From the NCBI GenBank assembly GCA_016282955.1, contig JAEELX010000130.1, positions 1 through 37,121 on the forward strand: DNA of 37,121 nucleotides, written 5' to 3'. Of the stretch, positions 5,235 through 13,218 are shown piece after piece (the stretch's first letter is position 1; each line of letters begins with the position of its first letter). The notes under the pieces were generated by a model that saw nothing but the letters and a program-made list of their open reading frames with translations, did not search any database and was not told where the DNA came from. This DNA is from Paludibacteraceae bacterium. Lineage in GTDB: Bacteria; Bacteroidota; Bacteroidia; Bacteroidales; Paludibacteraceae. The translations under genes were made by a program, and so were the position numbers.

Positions 5235-6296
5235 TCAATCCAAAGGGTCTTCTGGTATTGTTGTGTCTTCTGTGGGGAGTCCACTATGGCTTGCTTCAAT
5301 TAATCGATTGAAATCAGATTTATATTCTCTGTCTTGGATAACTCTGAACTTACTATATTCTGTTTCTGCAAATTGTTTGGCAATATCAGCACGAACCTTC
5401 CCTGCATCTGTCAGCACTGGGTATTCGTTAAAATTCAAAAACATTTCAAGTCGTTTTGCCCAATCAGCCATTTTATAACTTCCTCGTCCCTTCTCAGCCA
5501 TACGTTCAGCGTAGTCCAGAAACATATTCACAAGTCGATTTAAGCCTTTTATCTCATCCTCGGACAAATAATTCTTAGCCTTCGTAACATCGGATTTGTA
5601 TATTTTACCTCCTTTTTTCTGATTATTCCAACTTGTCAGTCCCATATAGGGTTTTGAGGCATCTGCACGGTATAACACTTCGGCTGCCGTATGCTGATGA
5701 ATGGCATAATGGAACTTATTTTGCATCGTAGCATAAAACAGACGAGACTCTGGCGACTTGGGATCATAATCTATACTACAGTCCTTAAAGATGTCCGTAA
5801 TCTTGTCATAGAACATCCTCTCAGAAGCCCTAATCTCCTGTATTCGTTCTATGAGTTCTTTGAAGAAGTCCTTCCCAAAGAGATTATTTCCTTGTTTCAA
5901 CCTTTCATCATCCAAAGCGAATCCTTTGATAAGGTACTCCTTCAACACGCGGGTCGCCCAAATACGGAACTGGGTTGCCTGATAACTATTCACACGGTAA
6001 CCGACGGCAATGATTGTATCAAGGCTATAATATATAACAGGCTTATCAGAATTTGCATTTTGCATTTTTTGCAAATTGCTTTTTTCATCAAGTTCCCCAC
6101 TATTGAAAATATTATTGATATGTCTGGATATGCCAGAAATATCTACTCCAAAAATCTCAGCCATCCCCTTTTGGGTAGTCCAAATGGTATCGCGTACAGT
6201 ATCAACAATAACCTGCACATTAACCTTGCCGTCATTTGACGAATAAAACAGGAAATTTTGTGCCGTTTCTTCTGGCGGTACAGTTACAGACGACAA
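5235..6296 (-). CDS. RhuM family protein
   Basis: 353 aa; FLFYSSNDGKVNVQVIVDTVRDTIWTTQKGMAEIFGVDISGISRHINNIF..., VIYYSLDTIIAVGYRVNSYQATQFRIWATRVLKEYLIKGFALDDERLK is the characteristic RhuM core. Confidence 0.93.
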   Translation of the reverse strand: MSSVTVPPEETAQNFLFYSSNDGKVNVQVIVDTVRDTIWTTQKGMAEIFGVDISGISRHINNIFNSGELDEKSNLQKMQNANSDKPVIYYSLDTIIAVGYRVNSYQATQFRIWATRVLKEYLIKGFALDDERLKQGNNLFGKDFFKELIERIQEIRASERMFYDKITDIFKDCSIDYDPKSPESRLFYATMQNKFHYAIHQHTAAEVLYRADASKPYMGLTSWNNQKKGGKIYKSDVTKAKNYLSEDEIKGLNRLVNMFLDYAERMAEKGRGSYKMADWAKRLEMFLNFNEYPVLTDAGKVRADIAKQFAETEYSKFRVIQDREYKSDFNRLIEASHSGLPTEDTTIPEDPLD

Positions 6297-6483
6297 CTGG
6301 CGTAAGATGCAGTTGCAAGGGTGTGTGTTTATACCACAAGTCTCAGATCCATACTACTGGACTTCTACTACTTATGTCTCGGGTTCTTATTATATGTTTA
6401 CAGCTAGGAGTGGTTATAACAGATGGAATGTAAGTGAAGGGGGTAGATATAACGGATATACACGTTATGTGACGAATCTTTAA
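6247..6483 (+). pseudogene. C-terminal remnant of a FISUMP-like paralogous-domain surface protein
   Basis: Open frame NRKFCAVSSGGTVTDDNWRKMQLQGCVFIPQVSDPYYWTSTTYVSGSYYMFTARSGYNRWNVSEGGRYNGYTRYVTNL* lacks its N-terminus but is followed directly by a terminator. Confidence 0.6.
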
Positions 6484-6491
6484 AATTTCGT

Positions 6492-6525
6492 GGGAGATAA
6501 GAATCGCCTTATCTCCCTTTATTTT
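6492..6525 (+). terminator. Rho-independent-like terminator
   Basis: Perfect stem GGGAGATAAG (6492-6501) / CTTATCTCCC (6508-6517) followed by a T-rich tract. Confidence 0.85.
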
Positions 6526-6556
6526 TCTTTGCTATTGAATCTATCCCGATGATTAT

Positions 6557-6587
6557 TTTGATAATTTGTTTTTTTGTGTTATTTTTG
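6557..6587 (+). promoter_or_regulatory. Bacteroidetes-type promoter of the TA pair
   Basis: TTTG (6557-6560) - 19 bp - TATTTTTG (6580-6587) matches TTTG-N19-TAnnTTTG. Confidence 0.7.
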
Positions 6588-6617
6588 CAAACAAAGTAAT
6601 TCAAAAATTAAAGAAAC

Positions 6618-6839
6618 ATGCAGTTAAGTAGTATGAATAAGTCACAAATGATGATTCTTGAATCTTTTGCTGGTGCTCAAAACGAGGACGAAGTGAATGC
6701 TTTGATGGACGTATTGCGTGATTTCTATGCCAATCGGTTAGAACGTGAAATGCAACGACTCTGGGATTGTGGAACATTAGACCAAAATGCCCTTAAAGAG
6801 TTAGAAAATAAACATTTGCGGACTCCTTATCGAAAATAA
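6618..6839 (+). CDS. Small putative antitoxin of a PIN-type TA module
   Basis: 73 aa acidic/alpha-helical ORF 8 bp upstream of a PIN-domain gene, own promoter. Confidence 0.75.
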   Translation: MQLSSMNKSQMMILESFAGAQNEDEVNALMDVLRDFYANRLEREMQRLWDCGTLDQNALKELENKHLRTPYRK

Positions 6840-6847
6840 TTACCTTC

Positions 6848-7264
6848 ATGGATACCCCTCGTATCGTGCTGGATACCAACTGCTTGATTCAAATACTTGG
6901 TGCTAAAACCAAGTACCATTTTTTATTTTCAGAATTTTTGAAAGGAAACTATATACTTTGTATATCTACCGAAATTCTTCTTGAATATGAAGAGATATTG
7001 TGCCAAAAAGCCTCAACCGAAGCAGCAGATTTGTTTCTGAAAGTTATTGCACGGTCACGTAATGTTATTCAGAAAGATCCTTTTTTTAGGTTGGAGATAA
7101 TAAAAGCAGATGAAGATGATAATAAATTTGTGGATTGTGCTTTCGCGTGTCAAGCGGATTTTATTGTAACGAACGACAAGCATTTTGACGAGGTTACCAA
7201 TAGTCCTTTTCCGCACATCCAAGTTTTGTCTTTAGATGAATTTTCCGCGTTGATACTGCCATAA
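6848..7264 (+). CDS. PIN family putative toxin of a type II TA system
   Basis: 138 aa; IVLDTNCLIQIL N-terminus, EILLEYEEIL, DDNKFVDCAFACQADFIVTNDKHF with conserved PIN acidic residues. Confidence 0.9.
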   Translation: MDTPRIVLDTNCLIQILGAKTKYHFLFSEFLKGNYILCISTEILLEYEEILCQKASTEAADLFLKVIARSRNVIQKDPFFRLEIIKADEDDNKFVDCAFACQADFIVTNDKHFDEVTNSPFPHIQVLSLDEFSALILP

Positions 7265-8801: not shown

Positions 8802-10153
8802 AACCGAGTATCCCAAAAGGCACACGCGACTTCTCGCCGTTGCAAATGAATCGGAGAAATTATATCTTTGACACCATCAAAAATGTGTTTCAACTGTATG
8901 GTTATCAGGTGATTGAGACGCCCGCGATGGAGAACCTATCCACGTTGATGGGCAAATATGGCGAGGAAGGCGACAAACTATTGTTTAAGATTCTTAATTC
9001 GGGCGATTGGCGTTCGGCGTTGGACAACACGAGCGACCTCTCGTTGGGACAAGCCACGAACAAAGTGGCTGAAAAAGGGCTTCGTTACGACTTGACCGTG
9101 CCGTTTGCTCGTTATGTGGTGCAGCACCGTGCCGAAATCGTTTTTCCGTTTAAGCGTTACCAGATACAGCCCGTTTGGCGTGCCGACCGACCGCAACATG
9201 GCAGGTACCGCGAGTTTTTTCAGTGCGATGTGGACATCATCGGGACACGTTCGTTGCTTGCCGAGGTGGAACTGTTGCAGATTATTGCGGAGGTGTATAA
9301 ACGGCTGAATATCGCGGTGGAAGTGCATATAAACAACCGCAAAGTGCTGGCTGGCATCGCACAATACATCGGTTTCCCCGACAAGATGGTGGATTTGACC
9401 GTTGCCATTGATAAGTTCGAAAAGATTGGCAAAGAGGCTGTGGAAGAGGAGTTACGGCAGAAGGGGCTGACGCAAGAGGCGATTGATTTGTTGCAACCGA
9501 TTTGGCAGTTGGAGGGCTCAACGGAGCAGAAACTGACCAAGTTAGCCGATTTGCTCAAAGATACCGACGAGGGTTTGAAGGGCGTGGCAGAGTTGCAGCA
9601 GTTATTCCAGCTGTGCGAGGGCTGCGGGGTGGACAAAACGAACCTGCTATTAGACCTGACGCTTGCTCGTGGCCTGAACTACTACACGGGGGCTATCTTT
9701 GAAGTCAAAACAACCGAAATCCCAATGGGTAGTATAACCGGTGGTGGTCGATACGATAACTTAACAGGTATTTTTGGGTTGCCAGACGTGTCGGGTGTGG
9801 GCATCAGCTTTGGTGCTGACCGTATCTACGACGTGCTAACGGAGTTGAATCGTTTCCCCGAAAATATCGCACAAAATACCGATGTTTTGTTTGTTTGTTT
9901 TGGCGAAAAGGAGTCGCAATACGCTATGCAATGTGCCAAGATGATGCGTCAGAATGGGATTAAGACGGAGGTGTTCCTCGACCAAAGCAAAATCAAAAAG
10001 CAGCTGGCGTATGCGAACGAGCGAGGCATTCCGTACGTGGCAATCATTGGCGAAGAAGAGATGGCAAGCGAGGTTATTTTGCTGAAAAACATGCTCTCGG
10101 GCGAGCAAAAACAGGTTGCCAAAGCGGAGTTGGAACATTTTACACTTCGGTAA
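8798..10153 (+). CDS. hisS: Histidyl-tRNA synthetase
   Basis: PKGTRDFSP, motif 2 [47 protein letters not shown]; start chosen at the ATG overlapping the waaA stop (ATGA). Confidence 0.96.
10074..10153 (+). repeat. hisS 3'-end repeat, copy 1 (in the intact gene)
   Basis: 80 bp ending exactly at the hisS TAA; 71/80 identical by eye to 13139-13218. Confidence 0.93.
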
Positions 10154-10339
10154 AGAATATCGGAAACATTATTTTACGTTGGATGCATTATAGTAACTAA
10201 CGATTTGACATTGCCAAGAATCTGGACGTTGGCGTGAAGCCTTATTAAACTCTAATAACGATTAAAAAAAATAAAAATAAAGAAAATGTCAAAATAAAAA
10301 TGCCTCTGGATTGTGTGTTTAGAAAATAAAATTGAAAAA

Positions 10340-11407
10340 ATGAATATGGAAGCAATAGATAAAAAGCAAATATCAGCAATAGACCTCTTTTGCGGAATAG
10401 GTGGACTAACAAATGGTTTGAAAGAAGCAGGAATAACCGTAAAGGCAGGGATTGATTCCGACAAAAGTTGTAAATATGCGTACGAAATCAACAATAACGC
10501 CAAATTCATTGGAGAAGACATCGCTAAAATTTCAGGTGATGACCTAAAAAAAATTTGGGGCGAGGATGATATTAGAATTTTGGTAGGGTGTGCTCCCTGT
10601 CAGCCATTTTCCACTCATTCCAACAAAGTTAAAGATAAAGAATTAGGTAGCAAATGGTTTCTATTGAATGAATATTTGAGACTTGTAGAAGAATCAATGC
10701 CATTGGTAATATCAATGGAAAATGTTACAAATCTAGCAAATAAGGATATTTTTCAGCATTTTGTACAAAGATTAGAAGAGATTGGCTACAATGTTTCGTA
10801 TAAGAAAGTGTTTTGTCCAGATTATGGCATACCTCAAAAACGAAGAAGGTTGGTTTTATTAGCCTCAAAACTTGGCAAAATAGAATTATTATCCCCGACA
10901 CATACCAAATCTCAGTATGCTACAGTTAAAGAAGCAATTGGCTCATTACCAAAGGTAAATGATGGAGAATGTTGTTCAAAAGACAGATTGCACTTTACCT
11001 CAAAATTATCAGAATTGAATATGAAAAGAATGATGTCTTCTGTTCCCAATGGAACTTGGGAAACATGGAGTGATGATCTGAAACTAAACTGTCACAAGAA
11101 ACAAACAGGAAAGACATACAGAGCAGTATATGGTCGTATGGCTTGGAATGAACCTTCTCCAACCATCACTACACAGTTTTACAATTACGGGACTGGGCGA
11201 TTTGGACATCCTGAACAAAATCGAGCACTGACTGTAAGAGAAGCATCTATACTTCAAACTTTTCCTGAAAACTATGTTTTTGCTCGTGAAGACGAAAAGC
11301 TTCATATAACAAAATTAGGAACCCATATTGGCAATGCTGTTCCTGTGAAATTGGGCTGTATTATAGGACAAAGTATTCTTAATCATATAAAATCATACGA
11401 GAAATGA
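10340..11407 (+). CDS. DNA (cytosine-5-)-methyltransferase
   Basis: Motif I DLFCGIGGLTNGL, catalytic GCAPCQPFS, ENV, PQKRRR, and C-terminal GNAVPVKLG. Probable start 10340 (ORF track opens at 10313). Confidence 0.95.
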   Translation: MNMEAIDKKQISAIDLFCGIGGLTNGLKEAGITVKAGIDSDKSCKYAYEINNNAKFIGEDIAKISGDDLKKIWGEDDIRILVGCAPCQPFSTHSNKVKDKELGSKWFLLNEYLRLVEESMPLVISMENVTNLANKDIFQHFVQRLEEIGYNVSYKKVFCPDYGIPQKRRRLVLLASKLGKIELLSPTHTKSQYATVKEAIGSLPKVNDGECCSKDRLHFTSKLSELNMKRMMSSVPNGTWETWSDDLKLNCHKKQTGKTYRAVYGRMAWNEPSPTITTQFYNYGTGRFGHPEQNRALTVREASILQTFPENYVFAREDEKLHITKLGTHIGNAVPVKLGCIIGQSILNHIKSYEK

Positions 11408-13056
11408 AAAATTTCACATTTAATATTTCATTAAGCGTACTCAATCATTTAGGTAGAAATCTTTACCGAAATTTTATAACGGTATTGGGCGAAGCCATTT
11501 CAAACTCGTGGGATGCAGATGCAAAAAATGTTTGGATATACATTGATAGAATCAATAATACCCTTATAATCAAAGATGATGGTTTGGGTATGACAGAAAA
11601 TGATTTTCAAGAAAAATTTCTGAAAATTGGTTATTCTAAACGTAAAGATGGACAAACTAAAACAATAGGCGGAAGACCTTTTATAGGAAGAAAGGGGATT
11701 GGAAAGTTAGCGTTGTTATCTTGTGCAGAAAAAGTACATATTTGTACTAAAACTCAAAATAATAATTTTGTGGGTGGCATTATTGATAACAGTAATCTTG
11801 ACAAGGCTATTAATGATGACAATTCTCAATATCAATTGGATACTATTGACTTAAGCCGATTTCAGCAATTAAAACAATCGCTACAAAGTGGAACAATACT
11901 GTTGTTTGAAAACATAAACGATGGCATAAGGAATAGAGTAGAATATATTCGTAAATTAATTGCTCTATCATTTCGCTTTTCGATACTTGATAACTCGTTC
12001 AAAATATTCTTGAATGATGAACAAATATCGCTCAATGAACTAAACGATTTAGCACTAAGTACACAATTTGTTTGGCAAATTGAATCAATTGATGATGCTT
12101 ATTTACGTGATAAAATCTCTGCAACGCAAGAATATATCAAGCAATACAAAAAACTTACTTCAAAATTGAAGATATGCGGTTTTATTGCATCTGTGGAAAA
12201 ACCATCCAAGTTAAAAATAACAGGGTCGGACGAGAAAGTTTCGGTTGATTTATTTGTCAATGGAAGATTGCGAGAAAAAGATATATTAAAACACATTCAA
12301 ACTACAAGAGTTGTTGATAGTTATCTATACGGACAAATTCATTACAATGAATTGGATGATGATACCGACCGTTTTACGAGCAGTCGCGAAGGAGTTATTT
12401 CTGATGATCCAAAACTAAAATTATTATTAGAAGAGTTAAAAACAAATATCGTTAAAACAATTATTGAGGATTGGGATATTTGGAGGGTCGAAAATAGGCA
12501 AGAAGGTGATTCTGAGAATACAAGAATTACAAAAAAAGAACGAAAATCAAAGGAATTATTTGATACTGTTATTGATGAATACACACCACCCAAAGAATCA
12601 CCTAAACGTCACCAAGTTGATGAATGGGTAAATTCGTTACGTGATGATGCACAATTTAATCTAACATCTTACACAGAATGCTTTATTTCCGAAAATCTTT
12701 TGCGTAAATATATTGACCACAACAAAATAGCATTGTCAAAAGAGGCGCAAACGAAATTAAGCGAGTATAAGAAGAGAGAAAACACAGCGAAAGGTGCTGC
12801 CAATATCAGTTTTGATATTAGGCAAAACTCTACTGATTTGCTGTATTTTAGTATGGACGATTTGGCAAATCTTGTAGATAAACCGCAAGATCCTAATAAA
12901 CAATCGGGTATTGCAAGAGATGCAAAAGTATATAAGCCAATTCGTGATGCTGTGGCACACACTTCTCTAATTACACAGGTAGCAAAACAAAGTTTAAATA
13001 CAACATTCGAGAATATCAAAGCAAGAATAAAGCAATTAATAAATGGGAATACTTGA
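11404..13056 (+). CDS. GHKL (MORC/MutL/Hsp90-like) ATPase with C-terminal HEPN-like motif
   Basis: 550 aa; N-box EAISNSWDADA, IKDDGLGM, GRKGIGKLAL; C-terminus VYKPIRDAVAHTSLI with RxxxxH at 12943-12960; ATGA overlap with the methyltransferase. Confidence 0.85.
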   Translation: MKNFTFNISLSVLNHLGRNLYRNFITVLGEAISNSWDADAKNVWIYIDRINNTLIIKDDGLGMTENDFQEKFLKIGYSKRKDGQTKTIGGRPFIGRKGIGKLALLSCAEKVHICTKTQNNNFVGGIIDNSNLDKAINDDNSQYQLDTIDLSRFQQLKQSLQSGTILLFENINDGIRNRVEYIRKLIALSFRFSILDNSFKIFLNDEQISLNELNDLALSTQFVWQIESIDDAYLRDKISATQEYIKQYKKLTSKLKICGFIASVEKPSKLKITGSDEKVSVDLFVNGRLREKDILKHIQTTRVVDSYLYGQIHYNELDDDTDRFTSSREGVISDDPKLKLLLEELKTNIVKTIIEDWDIWRVENRQEGDSENTRITKKERKSKELFDTVIDEYTPPKESPKRHQVDEWVNSLRDDAQFNLTSYTECFISENLLRKYIDHNKIALSKEAQTKLSEYKKRENTAKGAANISFDIRQNSTDLLYFSMDDLANLVDKPQDPNKQSGIARDAKVYKPIRDAVAHTSLITQVAKQSLNTTFENIKARIKQLINGNT

Positions 13057-13138: not shown

Positions 13139-13218
13139 TTATTTTGCTAAAAAACATGCTCTCAGGCGAGCAAAAGCAAGTTGTCAAAGCGGAGTTGGAA
13201 CGCGTTACACTTCAGTAA
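13139..13218 (+). pseudogene. Displaced second 3' end of hisS (direct repeat copy 2)
   Basis: Reads [25 protein letters not shown] in frame vs [25 protein letters not shown] in hisS; overlaps the 3' end of the convergent MFS gene. Confidence 0.92.

Follow-up and report, generated by a model that had tools for sequence, protein, structure and literature searches.

A C5 methyltransferase coupled to a restriction-enzyme-like GHKL ATPase with a probable Swt1-like HEPN domain in a Paludibacteraceae genome

Introduction

The occurrence of paraMORC proteins in restriction-modification (R-M) loci was described in 2008 (PMC2292703). In 2013, fusions of paraMORC proteins with Ymh HEPN domains were predicted in R-M neighbourhoods, and a function like that of PrrC and RloC was proposed for them (Anantharaman et al., PMC3710099). 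In the same work, it was proposed that the R-M subunits restrain the RNase of R-M-tied HEPN domains until it is released from this block. The GHKL-Shedu protein VcSduA (paraMORC3) also consists of a GHKL ATPase joined to a C-terminal effector, in this case a nuclease, and its phage defence is abolished by either E27A or K557A, indicating that the ATPase and the nuclease are both needed (PMC12137116). In GHKL-TIR relatives (paraMORC4, PMC2292703), the GHKL module is combined with a TIR domain as the exchangeable C-terminal effector. R-M systems of the BbrUII/HgiDII kind (NCBIfam NF050001) pair a C5 methylase with a protein that includes a GHKL-S5 half and a nuclease half.

Here, a two-gene locus of a Paludibacteraceae bacterium was analysed in a stretch of DNA of 37,121 nucleotides, referred to as the window. 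Like the BbrUII/HgiDII systems, the locus encodes a C5 methylase and a protein with the equivalent GHKL-S5 half, but the nuclease half (model positions ~372-659) is absent and a HEPN-like domain is found in its place (Table 1). The locus shares with the paraMORC-Ymh HEPN systems (PMC3710099), which are represented in our set by L011-L013, a GHKL ATPase, a C-terminal HEPN domain and a neighbouring DNA methylase. However, the domain in the window is not Ymh, as the curated PF09509 model matched neither the window protein nor the alignment of its homologues and hhalign detected no similarity to Ymh HEPN (P 0.4), and its nearest HEPN relatives are Swt1-like. VcSduA differs in that its effector is a PD-(D/E)xK nuclease of the DUF4263 type, whereas the window protein ends in a HEPN-like domain and is constantly partnered by a methylase, and the GHKL-TIR relatives differ in that the effector is TIR and not HEPN. 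HEPN_Swt1 proteins (PF18731) resemble the C-terminal domain over the whole domain profile, with E-N-x-x-R and R-x4-H in register, but this similarity is remote, and no GHKL fusion was noticed among the Swt1 proteins collected.

The window system is a further variant of the paraMORC-HEPN fusions predicted in 2013, and the Swt1-like HEPN domain is its new element. A full-text literature search for HEPN together with GHKL, the coverage of which is incomplete, returned only PMC3710099 and a paper on sacsin.

Table 1. Features of the methylase-GHKL cassette and its flanks, with positions in the window.
Feature	Position	Strand	Remarks
3' end of hisS, left copy of flanking direct repeat	10074..10153	+	80 bp, 89% identical to 13139-13218
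C5 cytosine DNA methyltransferase, HgiDII/BbrUII-type stock	10340..11407	+	355 aa from ATG
GHKL ATPase with C-terminal Swt1-like HEPN domain (putative), 550 aa	11404..13056	+	
GHKL-S5-like module, residues 1-372	11404..12519	+	homologous to N-terminal half of BbrUII/HgiDII enzymes
C-terminal domain, residues 378-550, probable HEPN, Swt1-like	12535..13053	+	profile match ~12634-13035
E430-N-L-L-R434, HEPN Ex3[KR] element (putative)	12691..12705	+	aligns with EN[ST]VR of HEPN_Swt1
R514-D-A-V-A-H519, putative HEPN R-[N/D]-x3-H catalytic motif	12943..12960	+	
Second hisS 3'-end copy, right of cassette	13139..13218	+	80-bp direct repeat

Results and discussion

The gene pair and its methylase

The two ORFs and their ATGA overlap, which lies at positions 11404-11407, were found as originally predicted, and an in-frame GTG of the methylase ORF is present at 10313. 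The motif set that had been described as complete could be located in full (DLFCGIGG, PCQPFS, ENV, QKRRR and GNAVP), which identifies the product as a C5 DNA methyltransferase, and the same assignment was obtained with Pfam DNA_methylase (PF00145, E 3e-59) and with TIGR00675 dcm (E 1.8e-42). In the methylase tree, the window-type and HgiDII-type methylases share a single supported clade without confident separation of one kind from the other, and their TRD-containing regions are 50-59% identical. M.HgiDII methylates GTCGAC (PMC5867850), and by analogy a target related to GTCGAC is a reasonable guess for the window methylase. Avoidance of GTCGAC was considered as evidence on the target and was rejected as unspecific: the window has one such site where 5.1 are expected, yet the sequence ranks only 19 among palindromic hexamers.

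Kinship of the GHKL half with restriction enzymes

The N-box, G1 and G2 motifs of a GHKL ATPase, on which the initial assignment had been based, were confirmed at residues 30, 58 and 95, respectively. They are accompanied by GTILLFE at residue 163 and by a match to HATPase_c_3 (E 6e-20). The window protein thus combines intact GHKL motifs with an R-M gene context, as expected of paraMORC-type proteins.

Residues 4-372 were found to match NF050001, the model of the BbrUII/HgiDII enzymes, with an E value of 3.4e-88 and a score of 296.8 bits. The match stops at position 372 of the 659 positions of the model, and the lack of the C-terminal nuclease half keeps the score below the curated cut-off of 550 bits. 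An equivalent partial match was observed for the homologues L004, L005, L033 and L035. The S5 region is inside the NF050001 alignment, which extends to residue 372, but it is poor in the structure model. PADLOC labels the GHKL protein as REase_II (E 2e-40). Together, this label and the partial NF050001 match make the GHKL protein, as judged by homology, the restriction-side partner of the methylase, with the nuclease half apparently replaced. Hence, the original statement that the methylase lacks an endonuclease is correct for a separate gene but does not hold for the GHKL protein, which is itself a restriction-side homologue. The R-M-like logic proposed for the locus is strengthened, since the ATPase half is related to a genuine family of restriction enzymes and the methylases of both systems belong to one stock.

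Conserved residues and profile similarity of the C-terminal domain

The C-terminal domain of ~170 aa is recognised by no Pfam model and no PDB sequence, and a comparison of its alignment with Pfam and PDB sequences gave noise only. The curated PF18731 (HEPN_Swt1) model was unmatched in all six members of the homologue alignment at E values up to 10. HEPN domains are helical and are defined by an R-x4-6-H motif in which the R is followed by a polar residue, N, D or H. The motif is located at the end of helix 3 and before helix 4, and inserts can occur between helices 2 and 3 (PMC3710099). Such a signature had been noted near the C-terminus in the original prediction, which made its HEPN reading depend on conservation of the R and H in homologues. 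The motif is RDAVAH at residues 514-519, and both residues are invariant in the window protein and its eight homologues, as are E430 and R434 (9/9 sequences for each of the four). At position 515, every one of the nine has D or N. This conservation speaks against a motif that arose by chance. The upstream acidic residue expected in an Ex3[KR] element is E430, and the consensus of this element across the nine sequences is E430-N-L-[L/V/I]-R434.

For profile comparison, HEPN_Swt1 domains were gathered from Bacteroidota. Comparison of the C-terminal domain with HEPN_Swt1 by hhalign gave P values of 0.0016 and 0.0039 with sets of 9 and 16 sequences, respectively. With an 11-sequence core, the P value was 1.8e-4 and the score 31.6, and the alignment spanned 123 columns and kept the two motifs in register; this core was picked after inspection of the sequences, and the values for the 9- and 16-sequence sets are the fairer ones. 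The hhalign probability for the Swt1 match is at most 48%, and the similarity is remote. The core score was reached by none of 600 column shuffles (best 22.7), and the scores observed with the 9- and 16-sequence sets by none of 200 shuffles each. Real unrelated families, used as a control, scored 21.8 at most, and none of them aligned over more than 34 columns. In two-way HMMER searches over 969 ORFs, the first non-self matches of the C-terminal domain were Swt1-type HEPN proteins (E 0.014 and 0.017), and the first non-Swt1 match of the Swt1 core model was the C-terminus of L005 (E 0.0031). On these profiles, the C-terminal domain is probably a HEPN domain of a Swt1-like kind beyond the current Pfam models, and it is best described as a relative, and not a member, of HEPN_Swt1 PF18731.

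Structure model of the C-terminal domain

AlphaFold models were built on seven sequences, with the plasmid homologues L033 and L034 left out. The full-length model was too poor for use (pLDDT 49.7), and the model of the domain, which is all helical, is of moderate confidence (pLDDT 78.6, pTM 0.71). In the latter, the putative catalytic motif corresponds to domain residues 137-142 and ends the helix formed by residues 125-142, which precedes the last helix (148-170), as is typical of HEPN domains.

It is very improbable that this domain is a diverged DNase and that the protein is simply a type II restriction enzyme like HgiDII, even though the N-terminal half groups with that restriction-enzyme family and is labelled REase_II by PADLOC. 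The NF050001 match ends at residue 372, whereas the model continues to position 659; the domain model contains only helices, unlike PD-(D/E)xK folds; and conservation falls on R, H and E-x3-R, not on E-D-ExK. An ordinary DNase C-terminus was rejected on the secondary structure of the model and the conserved residues.

In the fold comparison by AlphaFold and Foldseek, which the original prediction had proposed as a check, the moderate domain model had no match in the PDB at E <= 0.001 (best E 0.73). A Foldseek search of the viral library BFVD with the same model returned nothing. The 39 weak matches include HEPN chains below significance, namely Csm6 (8pe3 and 6tug) and 7bxo_F, a toxin-antitoxin chain with TM scores of 0.39/0.49 that is probably the HEPN toxin of its pair. 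The HEPN reading is supported by the conservation of R and H and by the Swt1 profile similarity, but not by a significant fold match.

A fold unconfirmed by Foldseek would also suit a HEPN-like domain that serves to bind RNA or DNA or to dimerise, in which case the protein would remodel DNA in an ATP-dependent manner as a partner of the methylase and would have no RNase activity. Some HEPN families without an intact motif are indeed thought to be non-catalytic and RNA-binding (PMC3710099). Nevertheless, we regard such a role as unlikely, since conservation of the full catalytic set (R, D/N, H and Ex3R) is unexpected for a degenerate domain and related modules bear nuclease or TIR effectors at the equivalent position.

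C-termini carried by related GHKL modules

At least four C-termini were found on the common N-terminal module: the HgiDII nuclease, Ymh HEPN, the domain of the window protein and a SpbK-like TIR. NF050001 proteins proper are encoded at L006 and L008 (about 800 bits), and L009 has a HgiDII nuclease by similarity. Ymh HEPN C-termini on the GHKL module were seen at L011-L013, and in L008-L013 a C5 methylase is located directly upstream of the GHKL gene. At L010:2635-3372, a HgiDII-type GHKL module lies by a C5 methylase, and its C-terminus matches SpbK (E 3.2e-7), an anti-phage TIR protein (PDB 9phb). The ParaMORC3 protein of Escherichia phage PhiR44_1 matches NF050001 with 751 bits, which ties the HgiDII enzymes to the paraMORC3 label. 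In this phage, which has P2-like gene names, the ParaMORC3 gene adjoins a Dcm-like gene that points the other way, and both are found between genes for replication and the portal (L086:4001-7049).

The presence of Ymh HEPN or SpbK-like TIR in relatives that each lie beside a C5 methylase indicates that effector exchange is a pattern. In the tree, a long branch (2.69) separates the GHKL halves of types A and C, and it is thus not demonstrated that one exchange of effectors links them by descent. It is conceivable, though we hold it only tentatively, that a methylase-guarded GHKL sensor chassis, known best from the N-terminal half of HgiDII-type enzymes, has been armed repeatedly with a DNase, two distinct types of HEPN and TIR, which would turn R-M into methylation-gated abortive infection, and that the window system represents a Swt1-like HEPN branch not described before.

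Proposed mode of action

On balance, the two genes rather likely form a mobile defence pair, guarded by the methylase and akin to HgiDII/BbrUII-type R-M systems, in which a GHKL-gated HEPN RNase would cause abortive infection. The methylase would mark a specific DNA site with 5-methylcytosine, and the GHKL-S5 half would survey DNA, as its restriction-enzyme relatives presumably do. GHKL proteins form dimers in response to ATP, and the active site of a HEPN domain commonly arises between the two partners of a dimer. Unmodified foreign DNA may thus induce ATP-driven dimerisation of the GHKL halves, which would bring two C-terminal HEPN domains together, and the paired domains would constitute an active metal-independent RNase that stops translation in the infected cell.

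If this is true, the sensing module of a restriction enzyme is separable from the DNA nuclease and can be coupled to an RNase with the protective methylase kept, which suggests that an RNase can serve as a new weapon within R-M logic. The pair would also be a compact two-gene system in which to study the reading of DNA methylation by a GHKL ATPase. With its clear choice of catalytic mutants, it would offer a small test of the RNase prediction made in 2013 for paraMORC-HEPN proteins. The same precedent (PMC3710099) limits its interest.

Distribution and mobility of the gene pair

Eight homologues of the pair (L001, L004, L005, L033, L034, L035, L037 and L040) were identified in Bacteroidota, on alphaproteobacterial plasmids and on viral contigs. 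Identity is 72% for L001, which is from a Bacteroidales MAG, 68% for L004 and 51% for L005; L033 and L034 are plasmids of Paracoccus and Celeribacter, respectively, and the sequence of L035 is identical in L036. In the full-length homologues, a C5 methylase gene is directly upstream and the reading frames overlap. In the Celeribacter plasmid pP73D (L034:3675-7092), the gene for the GHKL homologue is split by an IS1380-family transposase and the methylase is intact.

Of 396 Bacteroidota genomes, three had a full-length match, one of the three being the genome of the window. Such matches were also present on two plasmids but in no annotated phage record; among 395 genomes of the class to which the window belongs, only its own genome had one. 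The methylase-GHKL-HEPN kind is rare. An integrase and a repressor are encoded close to the L035 pair, and tail genes lie beside the L037 pair; these locations, together with the carriage on plasmids, show that the system travels with prophages and plasmids. In the prophage region of L037, a Ymh-type HEPN protein (PF09509, E 6e-41) is encoded ~1 kb downstream of the pair (L037:7698-8495).

The G+C content of the cassette in the window is 33%, compared with 48% in the left and 47% in the right flank, and its GC3 is 24-27%, compared with 59-61% for waaA and hisS. The cassette is flanked by two copies of the hisS 3' end (Table 1). The right hisS remnant encodes 25 residues that match HisS 429-453 at 84%, and this repeat copy overlaps a convergent MFS gene. 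The low G+C content and the flanking 80-bp repeat indicate horizontal acquisition of the cassette, which seems to have entered at the hisS terminus and to have duplicated its target there; the hisS loci of relatives, only about 65% similar, are too diverged to show an empty site. Insertion of R-M units with long target duplications is a topic known from the literature.

Carriage on small plasmids, low G+C and a flanking target repeat could also be properties of a mainly selfish addiction module, with the GHKL-HEPN protein as toxin and the methylase as antitoxin, that acts by post-segregational killing and has defence as a secondary role. R-M systems are known to behave in this way (reviewed in PMC3874152). 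That addiction is the main role nonetheless appears rather unlikely. It is compatible with the defence reading and not opposed to it, as both roles could coexist, and location in prophage regions fits defence equally well. The methylase-guarded defence pair is the preferred reading.

A further low-G+C segment of the window (5235-7264), near the putative defence cassette, holds a possible toxin-antitoxin pair: next after a RhuM-family gene (PF13310), a small ORF and a PIN-domain gene (PF13470) lie on the opposite strand.
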